Assembly: GCF_050947875.1 (NCBI RefSeq)
Contig: NC_134569.1
Span: forward strand, 189,840,067 to 189,904,066
Direction: 5' to 3'
DNA from: Dermacentor variabilis
Lineage: Eukaryota > Arthropoda > Arachnida > Ixodida > Ixodidae
Length of the DNA stretch: 64,000 nucleotides
Shown here: positions 28,361 through 63,339 of the stretch, piece by piece
How positions within the stretch are numbered: position 1 is the first letter of the stretch
Layout of the letters: each line of letters starts with the position of its first letter
Made by a program: the position numbers and the translations under genes
Notes under the pieces: model-generated
Database searches by the model: none
Told to the model about the DNA's origin: nothing
The model's input: only the letters and a program-made list of their open reading frames with translations

Positions 28361-28450
28361 AACATCTTTTTACATACAAACCTAGATATCAGTGCTAGAT
28401 TTCAATACAAATAGCGATGTCATCCTTCTAAAGTTGCTTAAACGAATAGC
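28340..28450 (+). repeat. Duplicated LTR-flank junction, copy B
   Basis: Partner of 27598-27709, lying at the true 3' end of the gypsy remnant. The two differ at only a few positions. Confidence 0.8.
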
Positions 28451-30554
28451 GTGATGAAGGTAACAGAACTAACGATGGACTACACAAAATGCGGATGCTG
28501 CACGAAGTATTTAAACCACCTCAAGAAGAGACAGACAACAGATATAGCATTCGGGAGCAACTGGCTACGCAACTTCATAAAACTAACAAACTGCGAAAAA
28601 AGGGGCAGGTTCGAATTACGTGACTACCGCAATCGGACATAGCTACAATTACTGCTAGAATGTCGTCGTAGTGCAGGTCGAAAATGGGCATTTTCGATGA
28701 CAGATGACGTGCGTTCAATGTGTTCACTGTCCTTAAGCGTGCTAAGACAGACGCTCAACGGGTCAGCTATAGGGTCTCCATAGATTTTGAGTTCTTAATG
28801 CCATTTGGCCCCAGGCACATCATCCCTAACACTTTGGCTCAGCACATGGCCAGGTTTTGGTTTCGTCATTTTTCCAGCTGTTCTTGGTCGGACGGCACAA
28901 ATGCGTACCGAACCTCTCGTTCGGCGAGGTCGGCGCCTTGCCAATCTTGTTGGTTGTACCCTAAATTTGTTGCCGTGCCTGATAGGCTTTCCCATGGCCT
29001 TTAGTCTCAACATGTATGCAAACACAGCGCTTCTGGTATTCAACTTTAACAGGTCTTCTGTTATGAACTAGATAACAGCAGCCTATTGAGGAATGCAGTC
29101 ACCAAGTCCATGGGCGCGCTGGTATGCTGCATTGAATGCAGCACACTTTCTTTGTGGTCCTGCAAAAAGTGAGGTAAATTAACATGTTTGATCTTGAAAG
29201 TCCTTTAAGCCAACTTGAGATGTTTTTTTTTTGCTTTGAAGGGACGCGTGTTAAAGCCAGGACACTTACAGATGCGTTAAAATAAAAGGCTATCAAAATA
29301 CACTCCTTTGATAAGTCGTTCATGATATGTTCTAGCTTGAGGACATTTGAACAGAGTGCATTTACTATAAAGGTACACGATATGCCTAGATATTGGATAT
29401 AAGCAACTAAAAATATATATTAAGCACCTAAAAAGGCACCTAAAGGTGTTTGTTAGGTGCTCTAGGGGCCACAATATGCAGTACAAGCTGTTTGCACACA
29501 CGTAAGCGAATCCATTCTAAGCTCTCTCGCAGTGCCGCTTGCATTCCTGGCATGCTTCACTGCATGGCATATATGCTTCACCGCATGAAACCTTAGTGTT
29601 GCGACGAAGCGGAATCAAAAAGACAGATTATTGCACATTGAAACACTTTCATTTTTATTGCAAATATATTATTTCAAAAATTCGAATACTGGCACAGCCC
29701 TACATTTCATACAGTAAATCTATGTCTCATATCTATCTTAATGAAAGCACACAAGCCTTCACTTAGGGCAGGAACCAGTATTGTGCAACTCTTCATAATC
29801 TCTGCACTTGGTTGGATTTATTATAGGCTACCACATGGACTAATAGAATGTTGCAGCAAACCTATAATTTGATACAGTTCCTGATGCAATAGAGCTATAA
29901 TAGGGTAATAGAGCTATAAGGGCTGCACTTTTACTGCTTACAATGCATGAAGTGCCACTTGCTTGCACAGAAGTAATATAGTTGCAGAAATGCTGAGCAG
30001 TTCATTGAAAGTGCCGAAATTCGTGTGTCACCGTCCTAAAACATTATGACAACCTTATCAAGGTTTGTATTCAGGCTCGAGATGGCGCCTATGCTTGCTC
30101 AGGAGAAATTTCCAGCGTAAGAATGTGGCGTCCATGTCTCCAGTTTTCAATCATATCTTGGGTGAAGCAAAACCGGACAGACGCTGGTGCCTGGTGTCCC
30201 CAAATTATATTTTCGGCCGAGCCCGCTCAATCAGGCAGAATCCGGCTTCTGCCGATTCCACTTATCGTGCATGGTGAGCGTGCTAGGCGTGTCCTCGTTC
30301 TCTTTTGTGACCGGACCATTATGGCACGTAGTTGTGTGCTAGAATATCATGCCAATACACTGTGCATGCATTTCGTTGTGTGTGACAGCTTCATCCACTC
30401 CGAAGTCCTTAGTTATAGCTGGTGCGACCACCCGGCATTCTTAAAACTTCCCTACTGTTTGGTGATGATAGCCGACTTCAAAATGTGCAGAGGCGCCAGC
30501 GATGTTGACCTAGTAGTCCTCAGTTTTCCAAATATGGACAGGGCCCAGTTCCAC
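28451..30554. other. Unassigned sequence upstream of the large transposon
   Basis: Short ORFs only. No domain, tRNA-like or LTR-like feature recognised. Confidence 0.4.
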
Positions 30555-30587
30555 TTAAAGGGACACTAAAGGTTACCAGAAAGTCAA
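30555..30587 (+). repeat. Left TTAA target site and 29-bp terminal inverted repeat
   Basis: TTAA at 30555-30558, then the inverted repeat 30559-30587 (AGGGACACTAAAGGTTACCA followed by GAAAGTCAA). It is identical over 29/29 bases to the reverse complement of 45292-45320. Confidence 0.95.
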
Positions 30588-31027
30588 GTTAAAGTGGTAG
30601 AGCAATGTTCTAGAACGTCTAAGGCGTCAATATAATCGCGAACAGAGCTTTAGTAACCGAGAAATTGAGGTAAATGCATGACACGATTTGAGACCCCCCA
30701 GCGACATTCCGGTACTAACCCGATGACGAAAGGACTCCCCATAACTTATGTTACTAATACTCAACTACTCGTATTAAAAATATCGTTTCATTCGATTATA
30801 AGATGGAAGAAAATGCTACTTGTCTACGTCTACTCGATTCTAAGAAAAAATAACATTTTGACGTTACCCTTCAGTAGTATGGGTGGTCGAAAGGTTTCGT
30901 TTTCGCTCGACTCTGCGCGCACGACTCTGCGCCCCGCACGCTTCGGAGTTTCAGTAGTTTCGTTATCGCGTCGTGCTGTGCGGGTTCTGCTGGCTCGTGA
31001 AACTTTCATTTGGAACAAGCAGCGAGA

Positions 31028-34000
31028 ATGCCACGTCCATGTGATGGCGTGGGATGCCCGAACGGTTCGCGGAACTTGGCCAAGGGCAGTCGCAGCGGCG
31101 AATCCAACGTTACTTATCACTGTGTGCCAAGGAGTGAACCTCTCCGTTCGAAGTGGTTAAGTGCCGTACCTCTGCTACAACTCGTTGGCAAAGAGCCGAA
31201 AAATCGCGTAGTGTGCTCGCTGCACTTTCGTCCAGAGGATTACGAGTTTAACGCCGACTTACTGAAGTCGTCTGGAGTGCCTATCAGAGCAATGCTTTCC
31301 CGTAGCGCTGTTCCGTCGGTCTTGCCTGCATTCTCCGAAGCGCAAGAACAACTGCAGGACGAAGACGGGGCGGTGAGTGCGGCATTTTGTTTCCACGAAG
31401 GAAAAGCTAGAAATGTGCGAATATGTACAGCCATGACATAAAGTTGCTTGTATTTTCAGGCTGAACGTAGCGAATCGCAAGCCAGCGCTTCGACAGTCGA
31501 CACCTCCTACAAAAGCGACGTACAGGTACGCAAAATGCGCGAAAACTGGCTATTACTGGCGCTCTCGCTCGATGACTGCACTGACAGAAGTCACTGCACA
31601 AACTGGTTGCACCTGACGTGTTCGTTATTTTCTAGGCGACTCGTGACGCGGGGACAGATGCAAGCCTCTCGTCGAGCACTGCCGAACAAAGTTGCAGTAG
31701 CGTTGGAAATACGAAATCTGTACAAGTTCGTCTGCCCGGCACGAGCATTGGTGAGTTTGCTTCTGGTAATGTTGGCATCAGCACTTAAATTCAAGGAATG
31801 TTCATTTTGATCACAGGTAGTCTCATTTCCATTTACAGTAATATTTAAAGCAATCCTCACCTACAATGGTCAGTTGAATAGCTTTTTTCCAACGTGACTT
31901 TTATTGCAGGAGTTCAAGTTAACACAACAATGAAGGAAACAAAGGAAAAGGGAACGCAGGTTTGCAGGAGAAGGAAGCCCGTGACATCAACACCTGTGAA
32001 GAGGCGTTGTAGTGCTCGAAGAGCTGATGGAGCCAAACGACGGCGACAAACATCTAGACAGGAGGCCAGCTTTCTCGCCTCACCTGATGCATCACCGGTA
32101 GCTTGCAAAGCTGACAGGCATGACACGACATATGAGCCAGACAACTCGACTTGTACCTTGGATGCAACATTAGCTGATGAGTGAGCAGGACTCATATTTT
32201 ACTACATAGGAAGCCATGCTCAAAAATAGTGACATGCAATGATAAAGACATGGAGTAGCAACTCCCGACACTAATTCCGTTTCTTAGAACCATTCCCCTT
32301 TGCAAAAAAGAGCTCAAATGCCATAAGTCTTGGAGCTTGACTTTGGACAGTGTTTTTTTGCAACTTTAATCAACACAAATTAGAGAGCATGGTTCAAGAT
32401 TACCGTTAGAATTTATAAGGAAAAAAAAACCCTCACAATCTGGATGAAACTTTCACAAAATTATTTCTAGCGCTTTCTATTATGAGTGTCATCACAAGAA
32501 GTGTTTCCTGGCGTGATTGGTGCAGCATAACTTATGGAACAGTACCTCCCAGATATAGTGAGGCAATTTATTAATCATGGTGTAAACAGTGTATATTGTC
32601 AAATGCATATATTTGTGAAACCTGACAGTGAGCACTTCCTTTTCCAGAAGCGACGAAGATGCGCATGCAAACCGGAAGGACTACTTCCTTGTCCACAGCA
32701 CCTGCCTAGTCCCCCTTCTGAGTCAGTGCCGCACTTGTTTGTCAGCTTCATGCACAGTGAAGCTGTTTTACACTGGCACACGCATTACAGCAGAAACTGA
32801 ATGTCCACACGCACATGTGCATACGTGGTCCAGCCAGCCACTTGTTGGAACCAAGCCGAGGGGCAACATCGACCTGGCAACGGCTCTGCTTTTTTCCGGC
32901 TCAAGTCCTACTAGTGCTCTCAGGATGATGCGGCTGATGGGTGTGCAAGTCATGAGCGACCAGGCTTTCTTCAATTACCAGAAGGCATACCTTCTTCCTT
33001 CAGTGACCATGGTAATTGCACAGCTTCCACTTTTCATAATGCCAACCTGCAGTACCTCTGGCACCATTCAAATATGCTCAAAAGGCACTTTATTTCGAAC
33101 CTGAGTATTAGTTCTGTGCTTACTTTCACCAAGAGAGAGAGAGAGAGAAATTTATTTACAGAAAGGTAGAGAGGTCGGCCTGAGCTATAACTTGCTCTGG
33201 CCTGCTACTCTACACTGGGGAGAAGGGACGGGAAGGGAAAGGGCTGATGATGGTATAAGGAAGAGATGCGTATAGACAAATTCACAGAGTTGTGGCATCT
33301 CTAAAGCCGTGCGTCCAGCTCAGTGGCTTGGAGAAAAGCTATAGCGGCACTTGTTACCACGGCTGCGCTGTTTGCATTAGGCCACGGACCTAAAAGAAAC
33401 TCGTCTGATAGCGGTCTCTTATGGATCGCTGCAATGGAAGAGACAAGTTGCTGTCGTTCTTGCGTGTACGCAGGACACACGCAAAATATATGTTCAAGTG
33501 TTTCTGGCACCGCGCAGTATTCAGTTTGGGCTAGTATCACTGGCACCTATCGTATGTCTATAACAGTTGGTGAATGCGACACCAACGCGAATCCGGTGCA
33601 CCATGCTCGTGTGGCTTTTTTTGAACTTGTGAGGCATACGAAATTTCATTTCTTGGTCCCATTTGTGTAATCGCTTGTGTCGTCGATCTGGTTGGGTCCA
33701 GTGTTTTAACGTACGGTTGCGTATTACTTTCACCAATGTGAACATACATTATTATGATGTTGTGCAGTTCATTGCATCAGTAATGAAAGAACAGTAAATT
33801 GGGTTGCCATTTTCATTTTATTCAGAACCTCTACATCGCTGACATTACAGCTTTTACAGACTTCGGCATTCCACGCCAAGGGAACCAACATCAATTTTTT
33901 CCCTTTCTTTTATTGCTGCCAGGAATGTAACTGAAAAAAATTGTAAGTGTTGATTGTTGCAGGAAAGTATTTCCTTCAGCCAAAGGATATATTTTTTTCA

Positions 34001-37000
34001 TAAGGCTATTCCGTGAAAACTGGTCCTCCTAGTACTGTGTAAGCTAATGTAATGCATTGGTGGCTCAGATGAGTATGGCTGAAGAATGTAACTTCGTAAC
34101 GTCAGAAATTCAGCAAGTTTGTCCTGCATAATTGAAAATCTAACTGCACTACTTGGGACAAGAACAAAAATCAATGAGTAGGCGAGGACAGGCACTGCCT
34201 TTCTGATGGGTCTCTGTATTATACATGTGCTACACATGTGCATGCCGTATGCTAGAAACAAAGAATTGAAGAAGTGCAGCATAGATAGAACACCAATGAA
34301 AACATGACAAGCTTATGTTTCTGGTTGTTAGGCGGAAAGGGTAACTTGCAAGTATGACAAGGTATTACTAACACCCTACATGCATCTTGTTTCCTGCCTT
34401 AAAGAAATATCGAACAGCATGTAGGAGTGCAAATAGTTACCTTCCTCCATCCCGCATAAACACTATATTTCCAATGCAACATAAAAGAAAATGCAAATGT
34501 GTTGCCAAGCAGCAGATGCATTGTTTAAATGACTCTCTGCATGAGCACAATAACAATGATGAACTAGGCATTTTAGTGAATCGTTGTCATGCCTGTGGGG
34601 TGCAATCTTTGAAGAAGCCCAGATAGTGTGGGAAGGCACACTGTGAATGAGCAATCCACCTATCTCATTACTGCAGAAATAAATGCTGTGTTCGACGATC
34701 ATGGGCACGCTGTGCAGGCAATAGCAAGTCATGTTTTCACTGGTGCTTAATTTATCTGTGCTGCACTTCATTATTCCTTTGTTTTTAGTGTACAATGCAT
34801 TTACACTCTCGTTTGTAATAGACCGTCTCAATGTAATGTCAAAGGATGGCCTTCTCTGCTTGTCGACTTATGGTAATGTGCAGCACAAACGATGAGGACA
34901 ACAAACTGTGCGGAATGATCCCTGATATAACTACATTTAATTCCCAGAAAACGCCTGTTGGAATACAAACAAAAAGTTAGTAAACCCAGCTATTACACAA
35001 GAAGTAAATCCAGCTATTACAGAAGATGCACAAAAAGACAGATGGAAACAAACCGCAAGGACAACACGGATTTAAAGATATGAATAACTTATGCGTGGAC
35101 ACCAGGTACATGAAAATGTGAGAGACTAGTTGAAAATCACATGCTCAAAAACTATGCACCTGACCAGTCCTTGTGCGACAAGGTTACTTTGGATTGTAAA
35201 ACTGATATTGATGTCTGGCTGACACGCATGATTCCTCTTTTCTTTATGTTGCATGCCTCTGCCAGCTTGTGGGTCCTCTGATTTCCGTGCTGCAAAATCA
35301 CATCAACATCACTAAAAATTCGCATGTGAACTAGTCGAGGCATAGCACATACATAAAAGAGGGATCGCGTGCATCAGGCAGACATCGGTATCACATTTAG
35401 AAAGCAAGTAACCTTGCATAGTTTTTGACAAGCAATGATTTTTAACTAGTGTGTCACTTTTTAATGTACCTGATAAGTTTTGTTGCATTTATAAGTCTGT
35501 GTTATCCTCAAGGTTTGTATCTCTTCCTACTGTCGTTATCATCGTGTCATAGCTGGGTTCGTGTATCTTCTTTTCTATTAAAACAAGCAATTTCTGTGAA
35601 TAAAGTGCAGTTGAAGCTCAGTGCTCATCCTGCGCAGTTCTTTGTCCTCATCGTACGACCTGCCCGTTACCATGAATGCAACCAACTTGCCCAATGTTCC
35701 ATTCTTTCAAGCATCTATTTATGTCCTCGTCCCCAGTCACATTTTGAATCACTCTGAAGCACACTCATTAGGACATTCTTGCTAACTAGTTGGTTCACAC
35801 TTGAAGGAAGGTTAAAACTGCATGAAAAAACTAGGGGAAGCAAAGGAATACACAAGTCTGCATTCGTGATGTATTGTGTGTTCCTTCTACTTGTATTTGT
35901 TTTTTTGCGCAGTTTTAACCTTCCCATGCTCATTAACAGCGTGAATTCTTTTAGCAAATCTCTCTGTCCCCTGTGCCACTTTTGTGCTTGAACTTTACTC
36001 GTGAATTCCTTACAGGTCTTGGATGACCATCAGAAAACTTTGCTGACAGAGCTCAGCGATACCAGCCTGCAGCTTTGCGGGGATGGGCGATGTGATTCCC
36101 CTGGCCACAGCGCCAAGTTCCTCTCGTACTCCTTCCTGTGCCCTGAAAAGAGAAAAATCATACACACAGAGCAAGTTCAAGTGAAGGAGGTAAGTCAAGC
36201 AAGGAGCAGTTCAGATGCTTTCATGATAGGTCTTATTATACAAGCAATATTTACCCCAGCCAACTAAAATATGGCATGCAACGTTGACACGCAATCCGAG
36301 CCGTTCAGTGGCATATCGCAGTAAAGAGGTGGTCCTTCTTTCGAGATTTCTAAACTGGGTATTGCTACGATTATATTTTTCAGGCTGTGTAATAATACCG
36401 GAAATACCAAGGTCTGAATAAGAAACACCAATGTATGAAAGCCTCTAACCCTACAGCTAGAAAAGAACTAGCAGAACTTTCCAAGTTAATCAACAAGCGA
36501 AAGACAGCTGACATAAGGAAGTGTAATATGGATAGAATTGAAGATGCTCTCAAGAACGGAGGAAGCCTAAAAGCAGTGAAGAAGAAACTAGGAATAGGCA
36601 AGAATAAGATGTATGCGTTAAGAGACAAAGCCGGCAATATCATTACTAATATGGATGAGATAGTTCAAGTGGCTGAGGAGTTCTATAGATATTTATACAG
36701 TACCAGTGGTACCCACGATGATAATGGAAGAGAGAATAGTCTAGAGTAATTTGAAATCCCACAAGTAACGCCGGAAGAAGTAAAGAAAGCCTTGGGAGCT
36801 ATGCAAAGGGGGAAGGCAGCTGGGGAGGATCAGGTAACAGCGGATTTGTTGAAGGTTGGTGGGCAGATTGTTCTACAAAAACTGGCCACCCTGTATACGC
36901 AATGCCTCATGACCTCAAGTGTACCAGAATCTTGAAAGGACGCCAACATAATCTTAATCCATAAGAAAGGGGACTCCAAAGACTCCAAAGCAGGGGACAG

Positions 37001-39769
37001 CAGAAAGTTAGGTGGGCAGATGGGATTAAGAAGTTTGCAGGGACAACATGGCCACAATTAGTACATGACCGGGGTGGTTGAAGTATAGGAGAGGCCTTTT
37101 CCCTGCAGTGGGCATAGCCAGGCTGATGATGATATCAATACCAGCGGTGCTTTCTGTGCATTCCTGTTTTGCAGAGTGACAAGTGCAGGCAAGTGCCCAG
37201 ATGGAAAAAGAGGGCCTCGTAAGAGGTCTCAAATTTCTTTCTGAGCAAGGCATGTCTGTGAGCTCATTTACTACGGACCGCCACTCGGGAATTAAGAAGC
37301 ACATGCGGCTGCAACGTCCGGAGATCAATCATCACTTCGATGTGTGGCATGTTGCAAAGGGTACGAAGAAATTCATGTTGTTCGCCTGCAACAGATGGCC
37401 TGTGTGTAACCTAGTGCACTTACTGAATGGACATGCAATTGTATAATGGATTGTTCAGTGGATACGTATGCTAAGACAAGGAAATTCATACAATCACGAT
37501 TATGCCACTGCTGTGATGGTTATTGCAACATGGTCATGTTTGTCGTAATATGCTCATTATACTGCTTTCGTCACCCCATCGTGATCATGATACTTTCATT
37601 GTACTGCCTTCATCATTCCATCGGCATCATTATTCATAATTTCATCGTCCATGTCTCATGAGTGTCGTCATAGACTTGTCATGCGATCATGATCATGGCT
37701 AACCCTGGTGATGAAACAAATTTCAGTACGAAGCATAAATTCTTTAGCATGTCAAATTTTACCAGAAAAGGATTTCGGATAAGGAGGAACGATTGTGCTT
37801 GGCCCATTTGTCTGCGTTGTTCTTTACACTATATTAAAATTTCCTGAAACTGAACTAGTCCATAAATAAATACTACTACATGCCTGTTGTGTGCGCATTG
37901 TTCGTTCAGCTCCTACAGGAAGTTGATTTGGGATTTTGAAGGAGTGTTATGGCTTTTATCACGGTAGGCTATTCACTGCCCTCCTGGCTCCTCTGCTCAT
38001 ACCTCTTTAGTATTCAAGCTGTATCAGCCTTCGTTAGATTCTTAGGCAGATGATTCCTTTAATGAGTTTGCTTGCAACCTTGGTTTGTACAATGCCTACC
38101 AGTGCTGCTATATCTTTACGAGGCTTATGGTACGCAAAGTGCAGATCCACCTGATATGGAGCAATAGTGTATTGTGCTGTTGCCTTGTTGCAGGCATCAG
38201 GAAAAAGCTGACTGCAGCTTCACGGAGGGCTGGATGCAGTGCCATTACGGAATGGACACAAGCCATCACCAACCACCTGTACTGGTGTGCATGCGCTTGC
38301 GGTGGCAACGGGGACATGCTGGTGGCGGCATGGAGTAGCATGCTGAACCACATTAAGAGCGGACATGAAGGACATGGTGGCCTGTACCCCCGCTGTCCTC
38401 ACGGACAATCCCGCCGCATGCAATGGCTCACTGCTGGTAGGCATAAATAACCAAAGAGCACCAAGATAAAGTGCATAAAAGAGCTGTATTTATAATTCCC
38501 TTTCTTGTCAGACTCTCCAGCCTACAAGCAAATTGAGCGCATTGTGGCAGCACCACTGTTGCTGAAAGACATCCGCCAGTTGTCACCATCTGTTCAGACA
38601 TACAGCCTGGAGTCCTTCCACAGTGTTCTAAATGGTTTTGCCCCAAAGTCGACTGCATTCACATATGAAGGCCCGGTGAGTTTGCATAAGCTGATGTTCT
38701 AGCAATGAAACTACAGTGGATTATTAATGCTGAGACAAAATAATTTTCTAGCACACTGATTGCTGCGCTCCACTTCAACGAGAACTCCCAGCGAGAGCAA
38801 GCAAGGAGCTGTGATGGTGCAGAACAGTGGCGCATAAAGTCCTCCAAGGTCAGGCAAAGTACCTCGACAGCATGTGCACTCAAGGAAGCTCCCACATTTG
38901 GCAAGTCAATTTGAAAATACTTGCTGTGCTATGCTTTGCCTATTATTGCAATATGTTATGCAGCAATGTTTGTAAAAAAGGGAATGTTTTAGTCCTCCTG
39001 TACTGTCTACCAAAAGCATCGCTATCTTTTGCAATGGAGAGTGAAGTCACTGCGACAGCTGTTTTTAAGACATTTTCTGAACCTTCATGACAGCCTGTCC
39101 ACTGAAGACATTTTGCCAGATCAGTGGAATTTTGCTCAAGATTGCCATGTACTGCCAAAAGCTATACATCATAGAGATGTCTCACTGAAAGGGTGCAATG
39201 ACAGACACTCCACGATGCAGAACGTGGAACATTTGAATGGCCAATGCCTCCGGAGCGACGATGAAGTCAAAGAGGTGAAACGCTTCCTCAACGGGCTGGC
39301 GGCGGAGGTCTATGACATTGGGGTCCAGAAATTGGAGCAGTCTACAAGAATACGTAGAAAAAAGATGGCGATTATATAGAAAAATAGAGAAAAGTTTCAC
39401 TTTTCCAATGATGTTAATTTTTATGAGATTAAACAATGTCGTCTCTTTGTGAAATTGATGGTAACCTTATTTCTGGATCAACTCTAGTATATGGAGTGTT
39501 TGTATATGTCATAGGACATCCCCCCTTTTAGGTGTGTGCAGGTATGAAAGGGAAGAAATGCAATAATCTGTTGAACTTTTCTTTTTTCAGACTATGTGAA
39601 AGACCTGCACAAGAAAGTGATGGAGCTGTGCGCACAGTATGAAACATTCTCCAAAGCACTTGCACAAGTGGAGGAAAGTGTTCCAGCTGCATTCTCATCT
39701 CGGGATGACCAAAGAGTGCCCAAGAGAGACCTTGTAGCTGCACAAAAAGCACGGTTCCTCAAGTTCTGA
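31028..39769 (+). CDS. THAP-domain transposase-like protein (Kolobok type), 11 exons, one 1-base break
   Basis: Exons: 31028-31372, 31460-31525, 31636-31750, 31910-32180, 32648-33011, 36016-36189, 37189-37360, 38194-38436, 38512-38675, 38752-38900, 39591-39769; about 746 residues. The THAP zinc finger is residues 1-98 (C5, C10, W43, C63, H66, AVPSV at 94-98). Then come a low-complexity basic linker, a Cys-rich conserved region (exon 5: SQCRTC, then WSSQPLVGTKPRGNIDLATA), and a transposase-like core. The core has D410 in CGDGRCDSPG, D475 in FTTDRH and E617 in SLESFHSVL (D/D/E candidates), plus HHFDVWHVAK and NHLYWCACACGG. The C-terminus is in exon 11. Donors are GT except intron 10 (GC). All junctions keep phase except exon 9 to 10, where one extra base shifts the frame, so this copy may be inactive. 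The start was chosen at the ATG directly before the first THAP cysteine. Confidence 0.85.
33127..33760 (-). mobile_element. I-like LINE 3' fragment in transposase intron 5
   Basis: Minus-strand frames contain RIRVGVAFTNCYRHTIG and then, after a frame change, LEHIFCVCPAYTQERQQL and AIAFLQATELDARL with a stop. This is the C-terminal zinc-knuckle-like end (C..C...H....C) of I-clade ORF2 proteins. The 3' end is marked by a GA-rich run and AATTTATTTACAG-type tail on the plus strand. Confidence 0.6.
36430..37130 (+). mobile_element. RTE-like LINE fragment in transposase intron 6
   Basis: The frame 36435-36749 gives LGIGKNKMYALRDKAGNIIT and VAEEFYRYLYSTSGTHDD, then after a stop come EEVKKALGAMQRGKAAGEDQ and NIILIHKKGDSK (RT fingers region). 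Near 36980 it jumps to the extreme C-terminus (GTTWPQLVHDRGG-type) and the 3' tail, so the middle of the RT has been deleted. Confidence 0.7.
38990..39420 (+). mobile_element. Mariner-like transposase relic in the GC-AG intron
   Basis: SDDEVKEVKRFLNGLAAEVY and DIGVQKLEQ, then after a frame change YKNT and EKDGDYIEK, resemble the C-terminal end of mariner transposases (...LxxRYxKCxxxxGDYxEK). The catalytic part is not recognisable. Confidence 0.45.
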
Positions 39770-40418
39770 TGTGGTGCAGAGATCGGCCATCACACATTTT
39801 CTTGACTCTTCCCTGACCGTTAACAATGTGCTCATTTTCAAAGTGATCATTTAATTCCAAAAAGCACTAGCCGCAACCCATACGATACAAAAATGTTAAC
39901 TTATATGCTAGTTAGACGGGCAAATTTAGCTTCACATTGAGCGAGTGCACCGTTAGTGTGGTTGTAAGAAATGACTTTGTTGTGTCGCTTTAGAAAACAA
40001 TGCCAAAACAAAGGGACCAAAACAATGCCAAAACCAAAAACAAAGGAAACGGCCAGACAGAAGAGAACATTATTTCCTGTTCTGATGCAACGTGTAAACA
40101 ATATGTCAAATTGCTTGATTTCCTAAGGCCTGGTAAGAAAAGAGTTAAACATGCACACATGATTCTTCCTACTCTGCCATATCGCTGGCATTCTAGTCAT
40201 CACTAACTTTTCCATTATGTCTTCAGTGACGAAACACATCATCAACAAGAATACAGAATGTTTTACTGCTCAGCACTTTAGCTTTAAAAAACTGACAACC
40301 TTGTGACTAGTGATACCTGCTGACAGGTAAGCAGAACATTTTTCGATATCTGATGAGGAACTCAAATGTGCACGGCGATTTATCAATGACACCGCTGCTT
40401 CCACAATTTTCTTTCCCT

Positions 40419-43400
40419 CTAAGACTCGGGGTACTTGAACCCTGTGGGCGTTTCTGTGGGGAACGTCACCCGAATTTTCGCGACAGCACACGATGGCAAC
40501 ACAAAACGTTCGCCTTTTCGAAGCCGCCCCCACAGCCAGCGCACAAATTGCCTGTATGCTGTGTACCGGTACCTTCTGTAAAGAAAAAAAACAATTATTA
40601 CACACTTGCATTTAGAAACATTGCGTGAATTGAAGGCACTTCACTTGGTTGGATGGATTGATGCTGTGAGTAGCCTCTGTGGAAGAGGCTGCAGGCTATG
40701 GCCCCCAAGCATGTTTGTATTGATATTATTAAGACAATTTTTTGTGGCCTCAGTTAAACTTGCATCCCATGTTAAATAAGTGCCCACCAGGCACTGAAAG
40801 TAAACAAGCACAGTTGTAGATCTATTCGTCAACCAGCTGGACTATAGTGGCTTTACTTCACAAGCCTAGCTGGGGGTGCTCTCTCCCTACAATTATTTTT
40901 TTTACATAAAACTGCTCCATGTTCAATGTAATACATTTATAATGTCTTTTTAAGCAGCTAGTTCCCTGCTCATATATTACCTTACATAATGTGCCATAAC
41001 TTTACTTCAACATTAGGTAGCAGTCGACAGCCAGTGTACAAATCCAATGTGATATCAGTTTTTCATTGTTTGTATGTTTACTATAACATGAATGTGTTGC
41101 TCACAGATGTATTAGGAGGTTCCTGTTGGTGTCAGTGAATCCATCCATGTCAACCATGTGTATTAGTAATTTTTTAAAAACACGAACTACCTATTCTTCT
41201 ACCCATCCACTACATCTTGTTGCCACCCATTTTGCCACTTTCAACCCAAAGATATTTTGTACGCATTAACCTTGACCTCTTTTGCTACATTACTTTATGA
41301 ATGAGCATACTCAACTATCCATTTGTATTTTTATTTTGTATATCTAGCATTGTAACTGTCATTCTGGATCAATAGTCCTTGTAAATAAATACAGACTTAT
41401 CTGCTGTTTGTTGGATTCCTTCTTAATTCCTAAGCATCCTGAACTGCTTCCATCACTGCATGAATAAACAAAGTGTTTTGCCAAACAGCTGTTTTAACAT
41501 CTATTAGCTTTGCTGTTGGGATATGTCATGCAGTATGTGTACATCAAGAGGCTTAGTGGCACAATGTCACAATGAGAAGGCTGGCTAAAAAGAAAATAGA
41601 AAAATGATGCCTACAGACAAACCGACTAAGTATTCCTGAGTGAACGTTTGACAATTCCAAAGTGTGTGATGAGGCCGCTATGGCAAATAATGTTAATAAA
41701 ACAGTATGCATGACCATTATAAATGAGACAATGCTTTGATGTGCAGCTGTTTCTTAACCAATGCTGAAATTAGGTGCACCAGAGGAGTAACAATGTGGGT
41801 GTAACAACTGTATGCAATATGAATTGCATTAAAAGCATCGAAAACATATTTGGATTCATTTGGAAGATCAACTTTACAACAAAAAACTATACACGTCTCC
41901 CCGATGGTACCTGCGGCCTCCTGGATGAGCATCAGCTTGATCAAACTATATGTATGCCAGGCACATAACCGGAATTTTCTTTTTCCGTAGGGGGGGGGGG
42001 GGGAGTGGGGGGCAACCCCCAAGGTTTCTATGCAAAATCGGGGGCGGGTCGACTTTTACTAGTACAAACTTAAAAATTTTCCATCGCTCACTATAAAGGC
42101 GCGTCGCAAACCCACAAAATGGAAAAGAAACAAGGTGCATCTGACAAGTACGCCTGTGGTATACACCTCTGCTTTAATTGGCAAGCAAACAAGGAACCAC
42201 ATCACATTGACTCACGCAGGAAAGAGGCACAGAAAGGGCACTGCCAAGAACAAGCAAAATGAAGATTTCTAGTAGTGTTTTTCTATGTTGCTCTGGATGA
42301 ATTATAGTGAAAGATGTGTTTGCAGAACAATCGCAGTTCTTTTAGGTCCCTCGTTTCCTGCTCTACCAAGTGAAGTACTAAGGCCCTTGGAGTTTCATAC
42401 AATAATTACTAGATAGAACTCTGGCGGTAGTGTCTAAGGGAGCTGCAATAGGAGCAGTTGAGCCAGCATGGCAATTATGGGAAGTACACGGATTTGCCTA
42501 AACTTCATTCTTTCGGCTTCATACGGCTTTGCAAACTCATCATTTTCAACAATGTACCGCACAGTAAATAATTAAACAAACAAACATTATTAAAATTGTC
42601 CGACCGCAGGACTCAAACACAGGACCGCTAGGCATAGACGTCCGATACTGAAATCATTATGCTGCGGTCGCCTGCGTCGACACGTGACAACGCCCTTATG
42701 AATTTATTGCGGGCACGCCAGTACTTTGAGATGGTAGGCGCGTTTCGATTTGGCCACCTCGACAAGCTGAACCGTTGCAATTAGCAGTGATTGTTTGCGT
42801 TTGTAGCGTCTTCTGCACTTGGAAAAGTATACATTGCTTTGAAATTTATGACAATGAATGCATACAAGGCGTGGTAAACAAATCCACAAGCACGAAGATC
42901 AGACAAATACGTGTACTTCCCATCATTTCCATGGTGGCTCAACAATTGAAGCACCAGAGTTACTTATTGTTCGAAACTCTATGTCAAAACCGTCTCGTAG
43001 TGTTATTTGGGAAGTTGTGTAATGATGCGTGGCCGCTAGTCCCATACAACCGTGTGGAGCACAGGACACTATGGTTCTAGACATACTGCGCCCACCGTGG
43101 AAAGTTATTATTATGGGGTTTTTATGTGCCAAATCCACTTTCTGATTATGAGGCACGCCGTGGAAGGTTAGAAAAGCGCCCACATAGGCACAGCAAATAA
43201 GTGCCTACATTGGGCGGCTTGACTGATAACTGCAGAAGCGCAATTCAAAACACACGGAATCATTCTCCACTTCCGGCGGCGTTTTCTCTACTTCCTTTTT
43301 AAATAAAAAGATTTTCATCCATAAATATTTTCATAAACAACGGCTTAATTTTTCCATTTTTGCAACTCTTGTTTCCCGTTGCCACTTTTCCACGAAAAAT

Positions 43401-44958
43401 ACTCTACATTTAAGGGAAAAACCAGACGAGGTAACGGGTGACATTCATATTGCTTATGGGTTCAAGAGTTATTGCAAGGTTTGATTCAAATTTTGAAATT
43501 TTTAGGGATGACTAGGAAATGTAGATCGTTGAAAATATATCAATGGGGCCTTTCTAATGGCAGCACCTTCAGATTTCGAAACAAACATCGAAATAATGAG
43601 AAAGGCGAAAACATTCCGCCATTCTTTAGGTGGGAGAATATCAGTCTATTTCACGCCCTCAGTTCAGTGACATTTACCTTTCCCTTGACCTGATCAGGGA
43701 TCGCTTCTATGCCTTGGCCATAACAATACTGTAACAGCAGCCCAGTGTTGACCACGGAATAGCTGGCAAGTCTCAAGATTGATTTGGCGGTGCTTTAGGC
43801 GTGGCCGGGAGGAGAAAGGGGGGCACCCCCCCCCCCCCGGTCCCCTCCTTGGGTACGTGCCTGATGTATGCTCTCCTGCCCTACACACACCTAGAGATTT
43901 GATGTGCACAAAATTTTCATTTCTGATGCCAACAATTGTCGACTGGAAGTCTTGACCTTGCTGTGTTTGCAAACTAATTCTGTTAACATACTGAAAGGAA
44001 TACTTCATGTTCTCTGTTTGTCCCTTCCAAAACAACCCGAGTAGGCGAACAGCATTTAAAAAAGTTGACGTGTTTGCTTGTTTAATAAGCTATGTGTTTT
44101 AGCGATGCACGTTTAATTCATTGGTCCAAAGAAAGCTGTGCAAGAACAAGAACTTACTTGTGCATTTCATCGTCCATGGTGTGCCCCCATGAACGAAGTT
44201 CCAGGTAGGCCACACGGAGCACGGCAATGTTCAGACACAGAATACTGAAGTCTGGATGTTCCGTGATGCAACCCTGCGGTTGCGCGAGACTTACGGGTGC
44301 ACCCATCTCGCGACAGCACAGACATTCGTGCTCAAGGAAGTTCGCGAGCACCTGGCAGTGTCCACATTCGCACCTGTAATGTGTAATGTAAAAGTAACAG
44401 TAATGCACGAACCAGAAGCCGGTACAGATTACACACGCAATTCGCAATGTTGCGTCCGGCACTGTTGACAGCTCGACTCATAGGTCCATCCAACACGAAG
44501 CTACAGGCACCGTGCTTGTTTAGGGCTTGGCCCTGAAATGCTTTCAATTGTTAAAACACGAAAATGACACGCCGCGTCATAGCTGGCCGCGAAGGAGAAA
44601 ACGAGCAGGTTTCGATTAGATTAACCTGCGCATTGCGAATTGCAGGTAAAGTTTCTAAGCGACCGATGCAGCACGTAATAACAAGCATCTGTACGTACCA
44701 GTCCGTGCTTGAGAGTCGCGACGGCATGTCCAGACTGTCTTCTTCGCCCGAGGTCGCATCGCTGCTCCCCTCGATGCTTTCCTGCTCCGGAGAGCCGGTG
44801 TCGAGGGCGCCGTCGTAGTACGCAACGACGCCGGCAGCGCGAGCCCTCAGCAGCAGGTCGCGCTCGTCAGTGCTCAAATCGCTGAAGTTGAGCCCAGCAT
44901 CGCGAGCCAATGTGTCGTTGTCAGGGTCCATCGCGACAAGCGTCGAAGTTTGCGTCAT
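40419..44958 (-). CDS. P2X7-receptor intracellular (ballast) domain protein, 3 exons, 210 aa
   Basis: Exons: 44958-44699, 44373-44158, 40575-40419. Junction phases agree and the frame is open to a TAG at 40419-40421. The acidic N-terminus (residues 1-80) has no recognised domain. The P2RX7_C domain spans about 86-203: WCECGHC (87-93), HECLCC (102-107), QGCITEHPDF (120-129), CLN (133-135), then in exon 3 RYRYTAYRQFVRWLWGRL and LPSCAVAKIRVTFP. In P2X7 these Cys/His residues bind zinc and the domain binds guanine nucleotides. Here no transmembrane or ligand-binding part exists, so it is a soluble stand-alone domain. Donors GTACGT and GTAAGT and acceptors ATTACAG and TTTACAG are canonical. It lies inside the inverted-repeat element, convergent with the transposase gene. 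Its function in the element is unknown. Confidence 0.9.
40580..42590. other. Part of the large second intron of the P2X7-C gene
   Basis: AT-rich sequence without recognisable coding. It includes a G-run at about 41989-42002 within a G-rich stretch that could form a quadruplex. Plus-strand AATAAA motifs at about 41387, 41462 and 41696 could serve the convergent transposase transcript but are far from its stop. Confidence 0.4.
42595..42690 (-). repeat. Relic of a different tRNA-derived SINE
   Basis: On the minus strand GACCGCA pairs with TGCGGTC as an acceptor-like stem, with a decayed B box (GTGTTTGAGTCC) at tRNA spacing, followed by a T-rich (TTTG)n tail near 42570. It differs from Ruka and from the family at 1.6-5 kb. 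Confidence 0.5.
43108..43168 (-). mobile_element. Ruka: 5'-truncated Ruka fragment
   Basis: Only the 3' tail of Ruka is present (TTTCTGATTATGAGGCACGC block and (ATT)n). The flanks CCGTGGAAAGTTA and CCGTGGAAGGTTA form a 13-bp duplication with one mismatch. Confidence 0.75.
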
Positions 44959-45291
44959 ATAATGAAGTACCAGCTTATTGTCGCGCGTTTCTCGTTCCGC
45001 TAGCCATCATACTGCTTTCGCTCTGCTGTTGGCTCTGTCTTGGCTCCGTTTCTGGACGCGCGTTTGCGTTTTGCGCAGAAAAGCCGTAGCGCCGTCTGCG
45101 GACGCCGTTCTACTCACCGACGGCGCAACGTCACTATGAGACCGTGATGTCAGTACTCCTGGATCGGAGGGCGGGCGATTTAAACTGCGCTAGAGGTACG
45201 CGGACGCTTCAGAACGCATTTTCTCTTAAGTCTCTCCTTGGCACGAAACAAGCGTTTCGAGGTTTCTGGGGTGGTATTTCAACAGTCCACG

Positions 45292-45324
45292 TTGACTTTC
45301 TGGTAACCTTTAGTGTCCCTTTAA
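45292..45324 (-). repeat. Right 29-bp terminal inverted repeat and TTAA target site
   Basis: 45292-45320 is the exact reverse complement of 30559-30587. TTAA follows at 45321-45324. Confidence 0.95.
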
Positions 45325-45539
45325 TGTGTTCGGTGTGTTTTCTGCCTATGATCAAGCAGGAGTTTGTGCATATGTGCTCAGGAATGTGCTTGAGGGCACC
45401 GCATAGAAAAGGGTGCAGCGCAATCACTTAAGGAAGACGTTCACAATGTTCTGAACTGACTGCAGTACGGTGTGTCAGCTTGTCCGACTAAGTGCCCATC
45501 AGGATCCTAGCTGAGGACACATCACATGTTCTAGAATAT

Positions 45540-45612
45540 CATCATCAACGGCCTGTATTATATCCACTGCAAGACAAAGGCCTCTCCTATCACTTTCCAG
45601 TGTATTCTATCT
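45540..45612 (-). mobile_element. RTE-like LINE 3' tail fragment
   Basis: The stretch with ATCATCATCA, GCCTGTA and TATCCACTGCAAGACAAAGG resembles the RTE 3' tail at 10575-10625 (ATTGCAGGGCAAAGGCC). Confidence 0.5.
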
Positions 45613-46640
45613 TCCCCCAAATGAGCCCAGTAGTCATTGCGTCCGAACGATTGAAGTTCATCTCTCCATTCACTTTTGTCTTCCAGTCTTATATCTACTT
45701 AGAAATGCTTCGCTAAATTATAAAACAGAGCTACAAGTGAGGACCTTTCTCAGTTATATAATCCTCTTGCAAGCAAGTACAAGATACACATTGTGATACA
45801 CTTTTGCACGCTAGAGCGTGGCTGCCCTAACATGCTCCACACACTAAAGACGGTGTGAAAGAACATCATTGTCAAGATTCATTGCCGGTTTTTCGTAATT
45901 TTCATAATCATAAATAATGGTGCCTTCTATACCTATACAACAGAAAAGAATTTGTATGCTAAAATTCGAAATGGCCTCTATAGGCATGCACAATAGAAAA
46001 TTGGCAAGTCATTGGAACCATCAAACCTGCTAAATTTCTTCATAACCAAAAATTTATGATCTGCCTTTGATTTGAAGAAATAGAGATATAACCCAGTGTC
46101 TGGCCATGAATGCCAGCTTAATGATATTCTTCAAAAGTTGTAGGCATTTTACTGTATGCCAAAATATTAGTTGTTTTTTGTTAAAAAGCCGCATGAGGTT
46201 GCCACTGTTCCCCCTCCTACAGCCTAAGCTGTTAAAGTGAATGCCTTTCTTTGTATGTGTTACCCATCATTGATGTTCGGGCACCAACTGGAGCTGACCA
46301 TGTTGAATAAGCTGAAAGGTGGAAAAGTTGTATGCAGCCTTAATCGGATATATTAAAATGTTATTCACATTTCTAGATATACTTAGTATACTAAACAGCT
46401 CTATACTGCTACACTTAAGCAGTGAGGCAGAAGCACTGAGGCAGAAGGAGGTAAGGGCCATGCATTGGATGCCAAAAGAAAAACTGTAGTGTATAGAAAA
46501 AAATTTAACTTTCAAATCAATACTAAGATGAATTGGATCAAGACAAGTCGTGTAATGCATAGTACTATAAGTGGTGGTATAATTGTGAGGCGGACGCATC
46601 TTTCCCATGCGGAGAGGGTAAATCAAACCTGTTCAGAATT
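45613..46640. other. Unassigned AT-rich sequence
   Basis: No coding or repeat structure recognised. Confidence 0.4.
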
Positions 46641-49600
46641 GAGGCCGTCAAACTTTATAGAGGGAACTGCTATCAAAACCTCGTACCAGATGTATTTGGC
46701 CCAAGTCAGCCATCACATCTTGTACCTCTGGCTCTGTGGAGATTATCTGCGTCTCCTGTCCTACTTCGAGTATAGTGTATGGTCCTGCTTCGCGTACAGA
46801 TGAGGGTGCCAATTCGGGGTCATGTGCAGTCAACGGCACGAAAAAGCCTGCTGCTGGACAACGCTCTCCGAGGGCAAGCTGGCCAACCTCTGTGCGATCT
46901 GCAACTGTGAGCTCGGGGCTGTTCGGGAAAGCACCACCAAAGGCTTGTTGCACATCTGCCTGGTGCTTACAGAAAGCACCCTGGCTCGCTGCCCTGCAGC
47001 TGCATAGCCCTATGTGTACCCATACCTATGTCCCAGTTCCAGAAGAATTAGGAACATGGTAGCGATTTTGTTCTACTTCTACAATTTATTTTTTTTTGGG
47101 GGGGAGGGGATTCCGGCATTTTTTGCAGAAGGTGCTCCTAGCCAATCCGGGGGGTTGGTTCCTGATTGTGTTTGTGGCGCAGCAGCCGCATTTCGAAGTA
47201 TTTCTCCCAATTAGTAATTAATAATTCAGTTAAAGCTACTGCATTGTAGGCTTTTGTTCTGTTTAGGATGATCTTTAGAATACGGACAGAAGCCTCCGAG
47301 TAGTTATTTGTGTTTTGTCCTCTTCTAGAAGAGCACCCACTCACATTGGCGGAAAAGAAACATGTTCGCTTTCTGAACATAGGGCATATGAGGCTGGGAC
47401 CGAAGCTCTGCAATGGCTGTCTCAAGCTCGTGCTCCTCCTTTGCATAGAGAATCTGAAACACAAGTTCAAGCATGCATTTCTGTGTTAGCATTTTGTTTT
47501 CACCATATATCTCATCTGCTATTTGCATTTTTCTGGTAAACCAGAGCACTGCAGCTATTGAAAATTATAACCTTTCCAGAAAAGACTTCCACGAGTAAAA
47601 AGTACAGTATCATGATTTTCTTCGTTTCATTGAATGTGTCAGTGATAGCAGGAACTTAACTTTCAGCATGAGTTCTCTTCGGCTACATATTTTTTTTTAT
47701 TATAGAATCACTTGTATGCTGTGTTCCTTTTATTATTTTATTTTGTCATTGCTAAAATATTTCCTAATTTAATGCTAATTTGCCACTACTTGCATAGGCC
47801 TTTTGGAAAAGGCAGTAAAATGGGTTGCGCTTTGTTGGTTATCAATTATCAAAAAAGACATTTAAGTGGTGATAATTTCGCTTGAAAATAAGTTATTAGA
47901 AGATACTGGAAACTCGATATCCAATTCTTAGTGCGGGTTTGTTCTGTGCCTATCGGCATGGGTCATGTGCGCTCACTGCTTTGTCCCTCCAAGTATGCTC
48001 TGTTTCTGCCTTTAGATGGGAATATTCCTAAAATATAGTACTTTTTCTAGTAATGTGTGTTTGTGAGTGCGTGTGTGTGACATTCGCTTCTGTGCTATGT
48101 GTTCTGATTCATGCTAGCCCAAGAAAAGTCATAGCCAAAATTTTCTGGCTGCTCTTATTAATCTTAATTGAAAGCCGTTGCCTTAAAAGTGCGTAGAGAT
48201 GGTACGGCATGCGCGGAAGCATGAAAATAATAATTTTTGCCACTTTCTTGCTCTAATTATGAATAGATTACTTGGTGTGGAGGGACAGGATTGCTGCACT
48301 GTTTTGGTATTTTATTTGTATAAAATATGCAGCAAACAAGAACAAATTTAAAAATAACAAGGGTATGAATACACTGGGAAGATTGCTGAGTTTAGAGTGA
48401 CACAAGAGGCCTTCGCTGGAATGCGAAGGCTTGTTTTTGAAAATATTTTACGTTCTTACCTCAGACAGCGCTCCCATGAATGTACAAATTACGTAACTGT
48501 GAGAGACGTGACAGAGCACTACAAGCATGAAAAATTTGGATTAGCGTGCTGGGTGGCATGAGGGTCCTCCCGTGGTCTGTTTTTGTCGACTGCACATTAT
48601 GGTGAAACAGTGCCGACAGGTCGTCTTGTCCTGTCCAGTTTTTAAAACGTCCCGTCGTCTGCACTGCTTCGGCATAATGCTGTGCTGGTTGTGTTTTGAT
48701 ATTATGGTAGGGTCTACATTGTAATCGGAGTGAGAGAGTAAACAAGGTCGTTCACGTTACCTCTGGGATGATGCACGCAATTAGGTCAGCTCAATTATTC
48801 CAACAGTAACAAAGACATTTAACTTATTCTTCATTTCTTTCGCAGGCAAGTTGAAGTGTGAGGTACATGAACGGCGTGTTACTTTTTTACAAGTTTAGCT
48901 GCAAAGAACTCATCCTATTTCAATAAAGAAGCGCTAATAGATTGAACCCCAGCCACAAAATAATGCATAGCATGCGATCACATGGCAAAATGGGCCTCTG
49001 CACCTTATAGCGGCGCACACTTGCTCCCGACACCAATATTTCAGCATGTGCATCCTTCCACAACTGCAAACATGAATATTTTTGGTGTTTTTGTCACGGG
49101 CGCTCGAAGTATGCCAGTTTTTGTGGGAGCTGTCGCTTATCTCTTAGAATTCCCGCAAGTTACACGGCTTAAGGAATAAAATGAAGTTTGCGCTGTTCAC
49201 GGTGTTTGCACTCTATCACTAATGTGACAGCACATATCATGTGTGCTTCGTAACAAGTGCGCAGGGGTTCTTCCTTACTTTCATTTCTTTCTTACCTAGC
49301 TTCATTTGTTGTCCCCTTTCCGCCTATGTGCTTTTTCACGCCTTGGAACATGCTAGAGAATTCGTAGTGTAGAACAGACTAACCAAATATTGTAGTTTCT
49401 AAACGCACTGTGCATGCACATTGTTTAATATCAATGCCTAGTCGCGTGACCCTGTCGTAACACTTGGTGTTCTATTGGCCTATGGTGCATTTCTGTGCAT
49501 CATAATGTTACACTGCATAGCACTCCGCAACGTGCAAAGTACTGCACACATTGTAAGGTGCAGAGTACTTGAAACAGGAATCCTTGTTACGTAGGCATCG

Positions 49601-50679
49601 TAGGGCAGCTGTTCGATAAAGGTTCTGCCGCCAACATATTCGTAATGTGAAGAGTTCTCACAAGTGCCGATAATGGTCTCGTTGTTTGCTATAGCTGCTT
49701 ATTAATTATTGTGCCGTATTTAATATGCCATGTTTAGTGAGCAAACTAAAGCATCCTGAAATCCAAGCGTTACGAGCCAATGTACACCTACCAGTCTAAG
49801 ATGAAAATAGAGCACAAAAAATATTTAAGCTGACAAAAACTTTGAGACTTTATAAATACATAACTGCAGTAGTTCACACTTTCATTCCAGAGGTTTTGAT
49901 GACACTGCGTTAAGTCTTCTTAAATATTTTAATGCCTTGCTGCATAGAGGGCCTCTGAAATTGTTCGAACAAATTTTCTAGACGCATAGGGTTCAGCTAC
50001 GGTACATCATTTGCATCACAACTTGCCGGAAGCGCCTAATACTTAGATAGCTACGGACGATTACAAGTTGCCCTTCTCTATAGCCATGCATTTTCACCCC
50101 AACTCGTCGCCGAGTGATTGGAGCGACGTTTCCCCTTCACTGGCTCTGTGTCACGATGGCACGTCGTGTCGTCCATTTCCGGTTGTCAAGGAGGAGGCGA
50201 ATGAAGCCTCTCCAAACTCTCAGCCAGCCGCTTGGCAGCATTCTATCGCAGCGCCAAGCGTGTTCAGTATTCCGTTAACCACAGGCGGGATAGGCATTTC
50301 GACGGATGGGTGGAAGCATAAACTCCAGCTGACAAACCAGCTATAGCGTAGACGTATGTGAGCGGCCAGACCGGTCTGCATGGTCCAGCCACCTGGTGGC
50401 TCAGAGCTTAGCCAAACAAAGAGGTAATGTTGCTCTAGCCAAGTGTAAAATATTTTAAACATTCACAAAAGCAATACATTCACGATTACGCTCCTGAAGA
50501 AAGTTTACGCCAGGAGTAAAGTAGAATAGACTTCGTTACATCTACTGTGCTTGGTGGAGCTTTTGCAAGCAGGCGGCTGCACCATGCAGACCTTTCACCT
50601 TTGCGCTTCTGCTCATCCTGTAAAACGGCAGGGTCAAACGCCCGTGTTCAGTCCGCTTGCGCTTGAGTTTACCCAAATA

Positions 50680-50850
50680 ATGGACGCTTGAAACACTGTG
50701 TGGCAGTAATCCTTAGGCGTAAAGTGACGGCCGCAAACGCACAAATCCTGGCGGCGATCGCATAGCGACAGCCTGATGCGATGTAGCCACTCCGCTCGTC
50801 TGCTACCTCGTAGAGGGACGCCAGGTCGCACCTTAAATATTACCAGTCGC
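50680..50850 (-). pseudogene. Isolated THAP-like exon
   Basis: After a possible acceptor (ATATTTAAG) the minus strand reads KVRPGVPLRGSRRAEWLHRI and LCDRRQDLCVCGRHFTPKDY. The W and the C..HF block fit the second half of a THAP finger. The N-terminal CxxxxC half is not found nearby. It lies in the opposite-strand clutter of the MULE region. Confidence 0.45.
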
Positions 50851-60517: not shown

Positions 60518-60640
60518 CCAGGGAAGGTTAATGTTTTTTTTTCTTAGTTTTCAAAGGAACGAATCGATATATACATGATTTGACTATGCTTTCAAAGCAC
60601 GCCACGAGCGCATCAACGTCACTAGATAGTCCAAGTGCCA

Positions 60641-60873
60641 CCCGCCGTGGTTGCTCAGTGGCTATGGTGTTGGGCTGCTGAGCACGAGGTCGCGGGATCG
60701 AATCCCGGCCACGGCGGCCGCATTTCGATGGGGGCGAAATGCGAAAACACCCGTGTGCTTAGATTTAGGTGCACGTTAAAGAACCCCAGGTGGTCAAAAT
60801 TTCCGGAGTCCTCCACTACGGCGTGCCTCATAATCAGAAAGTGGTTTTGGCACGTAAAACCCCAAATATTATT
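60641..60873 (+). mobile_element. Ruka: Ruka SINE inserted in LINE ORF2
   Basis: Full-length, opposite in orientation to the LINE, with a perfect 13-bp target-site duplication AGTCCAAGTGCCA (60628-60640 and 60874-60886). Removing it rejoins the endonuclease and RT regions. Confidence 0.95.
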
Positions 60874-60889
60874 AGTCCAAGTGCCAAAA

Positions 60890-61578: not shown

Positions 61579-61669
61579 AACAAGCGCAAGAAAAAGGGGA
61601 AATTTATTAGCTATTCCTTCTAGCGTTGATGTTCATAATGGTAAGGTCTCTTTGGGTTGTAGAAGAAGT

Positions 61670-63157: not shown

Positions 63158-63339
63158 CAGTCGAAAAAGAAAAAAAAGGGAAATTCCACTAGGAAGATAA
63201 AAATAACGGCGTTGGGAACTGGCTATAGGGTGTGTTCCGATAAGGACATACTTAGGGGAGTCCCGGCTATTCTTCTTCAGCGAAAATTTTCGTGTAAGCT
63301 GGGCAAGTGCCTCTGTAGAAAATAATCAACCTTTGTTTT

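Follow-up and report, generated by a model that had tools for sequence, protein, structure and literature searches.

Architecture of the element and its ends

The window analysed here, a 64-kb stretch at C2:189840067-189904066 of the 2.48-Gb Dermacentor variabilis assembly, holds at positions 30555-45324 a 14,770-bp unit bounded by inverted ends with TTAA on either side, within which two spliced genes converge: one encodes a transposase with a THAP domain, the other, KolX, a protein with the ballast domain of the P2X7 receptor. We read this unit, at a probability of about 0.9, as a complete Kolobok transposon of the Kol0 type, with a THAP/DDE transposase predicted to cut and paste it at TTAA and with convergent KolX as a likely helper.

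The arms, at 30555-30587 and 45292-45324, measure 33 nt with TTAA and 29 nt inside it and are 100% reverse-complementary, just as the original prediction had described them; past the 33-nt arms, similarity between the left and right ends is no higher than background. No further site in the window scores more than 21 of 33 positions against the arms, so that neither arm has a second partner there. Inside TTAA the element starts with AG and ends with CT, following the 5'-RR ... YY-3' rule, and the start codons lie 473 bp (transposase) and 366 bp (KolX) from the outer edge of TTAA, or 469 and 362 bp without it, so the predicted distances and the convergent spliced genes agree with our 11- and 3-exon models. 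The two-gene anatomy thus stands, with two corrections: the transposase frame of the window copy is broken (exons 7 and 9, below), and perfect ends are not general: in three further full-length copies, C, J and K, the two ends disagree at 4 of 31 positions.

The older repeat in transposase intron 6 (Table 1) is recognised from a LINE-like frame (long interspersed nuclear element; by eye) and a stretch that recurs at 10585-10733. It lies inside the end-to-end alignment with copy K and is therefore carried as part of the unit. Pfam gave no match above cut-off for eight intron and flank frames, and "LINE-like" and "mariner-like" are names given to the intron repeats by eye.

The transposase gene

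The transposase runs on the + strand from 31028 to 39769 in 11 exons, with an N-terminal THAP domain (Pfam PF05485, E 1.8e-10). The exon model was built on splice signals and agrees with a tblastn search using the D. albipictus homolog P0017, which is 93% identical across 88% of the searched part of the window transposase. The introns are all GT-AG save intron 10, which is GC-AG; the GC donor at 38900 was found in the four compared copies A (the window copy), B, J and K. Numbered as in P0017, D410, D480, E622, D501-x-W-H504 and H560/H565/C575/H577 are invariant in 14 sequences and present in the window exons. These comprise the Kolobok signature, a DDE triad, C/DxxH and an H2CH zinc finger before the Glu, and together with TTAA and THAP they uphold the identification as Kolobok. 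Between the first and second Asp the window translation has, by eye, only two cysteines, and it thus seems to lack the second (CCHC) zinc finger of KolobokP/E/D/5, as is the case for the Kol0 lineage.

Compared with copy K, exon 7 of the window copy is one base shorter, which costs it the frame if splicing does not resort to a cryptic acceptor before 37189, and exon 9 is eight bases shorter, breaking the frame again. As read, the window copy is therefore unable to make the full transposase and would move only with enzyme from another copy.

A profile built from 14 transposase relatives led to THAP structures in a PDB profile search. The piggyBac superfamily was considered and rejected: Pfam gives only THAP and a weak MULE match, and the PDB profile search gives THAP proteins. 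The transposase model matches the P element transposase by Foldseek (6p5a, E 5.5e-3), which is not among the 50 VIA-align matches listed; integrase matches were read as a common fold, not as kinship. ISCth4 belongs to the IS256 family.

The KolX gene

KolX lies on the - strand (44958-40419) in three exons that encode 210 aa in a frame open in the window copy. Residues 77-200 match P2RX7_C (Pfam PF20478, E 5.9e-22), and the protein matches solved P2X7 receptors (best E 6.2e-10, rat P2X7), with which the predicted fold agrees; structure matches other than P2X7 were read as common folds, not as kinship. Pfam gives P2RX7_C alone, without the P2X channel part and its two transmembrane segments, so KolX is not a P2X7 receptor. 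Seven cysteines are each retained in 58-60 of 60 chosen homologs spanning animal phyla. The residues that contact guanine nucleotide in rat P2X7 are kept in part (2/5): R546 and R578 are retained, H547, R574 and K583 are not.

Scanning viral contigs with KolX, a KolX alignment, a transposase alignment and the end sequence returned no relative. Two unusual database proteins were seen alongside the homologs. P0186, from the fish Corythoichthys intestinalis, has THAP and P2RX7_C in one predicted chain, and is either a true fusion or an artefact of gene prediction running across a Kol0 element; P0138 (Ixodes scapularis, 381 aa) has a KolX domain followed by a retropepsin-like stretch (DTGA motif, by eye), and is possibly a chimera with a retroelement.

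Table 1. Features of the element in window coordinates
Feature	Position	Strand	Evidence
TTAA target-site duplication, transposase side	30555..30558	.	
29-bp terminal inverted repeat, transposase side, begins AG (5'-RR)	30559..30587	+	
Left segment kept in the 1.05-kb deletion derivative (element 1-505): end, 5' region, first 32 transposase coding bases	30555..31059	+	
Transposase exon 1, THAP domain	31028..31372	+	Pfam PF05485; tblastn with P0017
Transposase exon 2	31460..31525	+	
Transposase exon 3	31636..31750	+	tblastn
Transposase exon 4	31910..32180	+	tblastn
Transposase exon 5	32648..33011	+	tblastn
Transposase exon 6, first catalytic Asp, GDGRCDSPGHSAK	36016..36189	+	
Older repeat in transposase intron 6	36396..37134	.	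LINE-like frame (by eye) and recurring stretch
Transposase exon 7, second catalytic Asp, TDRH, DxWH motif	37175..37360	+	
Transposase exon 8, H2CH zinc finger	38194..38436	+	
Transposase exon 9, catalytic Glu, LESFHS	38512..38675	+	
Transposase exon 10, HFNEN motif, GC donor	38752..38900	+	tblastn
Transposase exon 11 including stop codon	39591..39769	+	tblastn
KolX exon 3, ballast-domain end and stop	40419..40575	-	tblastn
KolX exon 2, ballast domain with zinc-binding cysteines	44158..44373	-	Pfam, tblastn
KolX exon 1, start codon and N-terminal region	44699..44958	-	tblastn
Right segment kept in the 1.05-kb deletion derivative (element 14214-14770): KolX start and right end	44768..45324	-	
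29-bp terminal inverted repeat, KolX side	45292..45320	-	
TTAA target-site duplication, KolX side	45321..45324	.	

Other copies and an empty site

A genome search with KolX, in which the best 150 of 2,948 candidates were scored, gave at least 12 loci with KolX exons 1 and 2 together. Ten loci besides the window were examined, the twelfth locus (C3:211480561) and the single-exon C7:90039067 and C4:227197932 being set aside. Transposase sequence stands convergent to KolX in all 11 loci (as fragments only at locus I), the loci having been chosen by KolX. In ~20-kb stretches searched with up to 6 mismatches, both TTAA-flanked ends were found at five of the 11 loci, A, B, C, J and K, which represent four independent insertions. 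Copy B (C2:189907575-189922339; L009, L010) lies 36.95 kb downstream of A, is 99.9% identical to it, and has 500-bp flanks 99.8 and 100% like those of A: it is a segmental duplication or an assembly duplicate of A, not a second insertion. A, C, J and K, in contrast, have mutually unmatched flanks around elements that are 95-99% alike. C and J reach 17.1 and 17.7 kb, with extra inserts of their own, while K, in which the transposase and KolX frames are both open, aligns with A from end to end (14,811 vs 14,770 bp, 95.4%). With the flanks unmatched and K aligned over its whole length, the mobile unit is therefore ~14.8 kb, intron repeats included.

Copy K interrupts a tandem array whose period is ~981 bp. 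When its flanks are joined by one TTAA, the resulting sequence matches at all 40 scored places (of 611 candidates) with 98-99% identity over 122/124 nt, repeat units adjoining K on both sides among them, and in the four matches aligned fully the joint has no gap. K thus has an empty site with one TTAA, direct evidence for the insertion of both genes as one unit into a TTAA that was duplicated in the process. The ~981-bp-period satellite itself (C2:245088227-245106385, C65:3261119-3297820) is spread over several chromosomes and arrayed on C65.

Deletion derivatives

A 31-bp pattern of the ends has 1541 + 1533 = 3,074 matches in the genome (at most 3 mismatches), and its reversed control has none. 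Eleven of 14 end-pattern loci read are 1.03-1.27-kb units with both ends, that is, miniature inverted-repeat transposable elements (MITEs); the comparison left out L004 and L005, with no inverted end in their 3-kb loci, and L034 gave no pair. TTAA flanks ten of the 11 MITEs on either side, and L030 has TTCA in both places. Ten of the 11 join element positions 1-505 to 14214-14770, L002 having a different deletion (737/14254), and these ten are on average 95.4% alike (45 pairs); L006 and L007 share their flanks and are therefore counted as one insertion. The common type of junction has 692 + 700 = 1,392 genome matches (at most 3 mismatches; control 0).

The MITEs carry the starts of both genes. 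The frame from the KolX start is open for 94 codons in six of the 11; elsewhere it extends for 80 codons (L030), 126 from an earlier start (L008) or 55 (L002), and none was found in L003 and L031. In L001, L006-L008, L029, L030, L032 and L033 it ends in ~30 new codons from beyond the deletion. Its ratio of nonsynonymous to synonymous substitution rates (dN/dS), 0.64 over 36 pairs (without L002, L007 as the duplicate of L006, and L003 with fewer than 50 codons), is the same as in the full elements (residues 1-62, 0.65); the differences are few, and selection is not shown.

Constraint on the two genes and their linkage

Across element copies, without B as the duplicate of A, KolX has a dN/dS of 0.36 in exon 2 and 0.59 in exon 1 (45 pairs per exon), and the transposase one of 0.34 in exon 5 and 0.17 in exon 8 (28 pairs per exon). 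For A against K the ratio ranges from 0.19 to 0.30 over the exons, the KolX ballast exon having 0.19, and in the deepest pairs it is 0.30 and 0.64 for KolX exons 2 and 1, and 0.60 and 0.21 for transposase exons 5 and 8. The counts are small, the pairs non-independent and decayed copies included, and these values therefore say only that there is some constraint on both genes.

In wider animal databases, 15 of 48 KolX proteins apparently share a sequence record with a transposase (22 species, among the matches listed), though mostly on whole chromosomes, which makes this a weak linkage. More suggestive are Acanthaster planci (a 2.18 Mb scaffold) and Ylistrum balloti, in which LOC132563537 is a transposase and LOC132563538 a KolX.

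Relation to known elements

According to Kojima and Bao (2022; PMC9587614), elements of the Kol0 lineage encode a transposase and KolX, the latter matching the C-terminus, or ballast fold, of P2X7; the authors suggest that the P2X7 tail derives from KolX, with P2X7 and Nanor as domesticated members. The claim that a Kolobok with a P2X7-ballast gene was undescribed therefore fails. The window element has in common with Kol0, as represented there by Kolobok-1_XT and its relatives, the DDD/E transposase, KolX, TTAA and 5'-RR ends; the hosts named (the paper says "including") are vertebrates, annelids, cnidarians and sponges, and here the host is a tick. It differs from Kol0 as described in that paper by its many introns, its 14.8 kb, the exact empty site and the MITEs with the start of KolX. 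Membership in Kol0 is probable from the KolX ballast gene (PF20478, P2X7 structures, seven cysteines), and was set by comparison with the published description.

Its size is likewise less unusual than first claimed, since full-length copies of XKol in Xenopus measure 6.8-13.9 kb (PMC6004289) and the window unit lies just above. XKol also has AG ends and MITEs (T2), with TTAA at either end except in one of ten, where one side reads ATAA; the main text of that paper treats the transposase and does not contain "P2X", and it takes the XKol transposases from single long frames as against 11 exons here. KolobokP belongs to the same superfamily and, as described in PMC9587614, also has a transposase and an accessory gene on opposite strands, but its long terminal direct repeats (about 450 or 660 bp) and His-Me nuclease were not found in the window element: no direct repeat longer than 24 nt occurs in window 28000-48000, and no nuclease family is among the Pfam matches of the two gene products, on which grounds membership in KolobokP was rejected.

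The P2X7 ballast, Nanor and other ballast proteins have the same domain and seven cysteines as KolX, which comes without the channel (PMC7016195, PMC9859053); an Ixodes scapularis ballast protein is already noted in PMC7016195, and the job of the P2X7 tail domain is given as unknown in PMC9859053. The P element transposase shares THAP and the RNase H fold with Kolobok but makes an 8-bp duplication and has a built-in GTP-binding insertion, where Kolobok duplicates TTAA and has its ballast fold on a protein of its own; P element transposition needs GTP (PMC7776569). In ticks, a "Kolobok-5 tv protein" transcript is named in Ixodes ricinus (PMC7890033), and UniRef entry P0159 of Rhipicephalus zambeziensis, with P2RX7_C, is already named "Kolobok-2 xt". 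Our literature search, which took in few subscription journals and not Repbase, met with no account of a Kolobok carrying KolX in ticks, so that a description in a database only is possible. On this basis, an intact element in a tick, together with its empty site, and MITEs that carry a truncated KolX start are apparently new.

Other features of the window

A further THAP fragment at 12234-12746 (+; PF05485, E 2.3e-6) is likely what remains of another THAP transposon or gene, and a weak THAP-like frame under the Pfam cut-off lies at 50637-51038 (-; E 8.3e-4). A LINE-type retrotransposon occupies 58649-63325 (-); its reverse transcriptase frame is 634 aa long (RVT_1, E 1.4e-30), and more long frames lie upstream of that frame. 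A tRNA-like match at 2307-2380 (+; 39.9 bits) may belong to a repeat, because similar open frames overlap it on both strands.

Discussion

The co-mobility of the two genes, put forward in the original prediction, is borne out by their pairing in 11 of 11 loci, the four independent insertions, the empty site of K and the abundance of the MITE junction. In the mechanism that we propose, the THAP domain would recognise the ends of the element, the D-D-E RNase H fold would cut them and join them to TTAA, and the transposase of intact copies would also move the MITEs in trans. KolX would form a zinc-stabilised ballast fold, which may hold a guanine nucleotide, and would assist the transposase complex; a helper role is suggested because KolX accompanies the transposase at the examined loci and is under constraint.

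Several observations weigh against this picture. Canonical splicing of the window transposase leaves six internal stops. For the window copy, the search of the assembly for an empty site hit the flanks of A and B and nothing else. Five of the 11 loci have one recognisable end and badly decayed locus I has none; genes without the termini, which had been named beforehand as telling against the prediction, were looked for with this outcome, the other loci keeping both ends. Constraint is weak in places, with dN/dS of 0.60 for transposase exon 5 in the two deepest comparisons and 0.59 for KolX exon 1 overall. The identity of KolX also declines more slowly than that of the transposase between tick species (in D. 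silvarum, 86% vs 65% for the best transposase), and some tick KolX genes may therefore persist without a close transposase. Finally, KolX and transposase distances over 10 tick pairs, crudely paired, are uncorrelated (rho 0.03, 877 of 2000 shuffles as high; rho 0.12, 571 of 2000, minus one doubtful pair), while all 15 pairs give rho 0.25 (46 of 2000).

Part of this would fit KolX as a passenger, the transposase alone moving the element and KolX serving element or host in some other way, or not at all. We consider this unlikely, if still plausible: other Kolobok lineages have other accessory proteins or the transposase alone (PMC9587614, as described there), KolX exon 1 is weakly constrained and no assay of KolX was found, but the presence of transposase sequence beside KolX at every locus, even with loci chosen by KolX, the lower dN/dS of the ballast exon (0.36 over 45 pairs, 0.19 between A and K) and the retained cysteines speak against it. 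It is highly improbable that KolX is a host or domesticated gene acquired by a Kolobok, or one next to which a Kolobok inserted. In favour of this, annotation treats the KolX proteins of ticks as products of host genes ("P2X purinoceptor 7-like"), and domesticated members of the family are reported (PMC9587614); against it, the KolX gene is enclosed by the inverted ends, starts 366 bp from one of them, is multi-copy in the genome and moves with the element, and the MITEs carry the start of its first exon.

Two further accounts concern the unit itself. Ends as common as these, with 3,074 matches in 2.48 Gb, must have chance neighbours, and two separate MITEs could in principle face each other around two ordinary genes. 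This outcome was looked for and not found: in the window, the only partner of each end is the other, the same 14.8-kb unit occurs at unrelated sites, and the MITEs read are deletions of that very unit, so that, with K lying end to end in an empty site, the account is refuted for practical purposes. The size of the window copy might instead reflect later inflation by LINE-like, mariner-like or other intron inserts. Repeat fragments do lie in transposase introns 6 and 10 and in the large KolX intron, C and J do hold extra inserts, and we at first held such a nested-insertion account of the length; it was dropped, and now seems very improbable, because K, at another site, has nearly equal length and aligns end to end, from which it follows that the repeat fragments were present in the shared ancestor and travel with the unit.

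The two-gene Kol0-type unit with KolX as a likely helper therefore remains our preferred reading. Our boldest extension of it, for which the residue evidence is mixed and which is improbable, would make KolX a guanine-nucleotide subunit that brings GTP/GDP to the paired ends, in possible parallel to the built-in domain of the P element, with the truncated KolX of the MITEs damping the system.

For annotation, the Kol0 family is misleading: the first 159 residues of the D. variabilis protein annotated as LOC142564187 (P0002, 164 aa) are those of the KolX of J and K, with identity at 87/87 and 72/72 residues. For the function of KolX, the D. variabilis genome offers material in the form of a young two-gene element with open frames, an empty site, short ends and many deletion derivatives. 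Were KolX indeed a nucleotide subunit, the ballast domain of the P2X7 receptor would be a re-used transposition cofactor.

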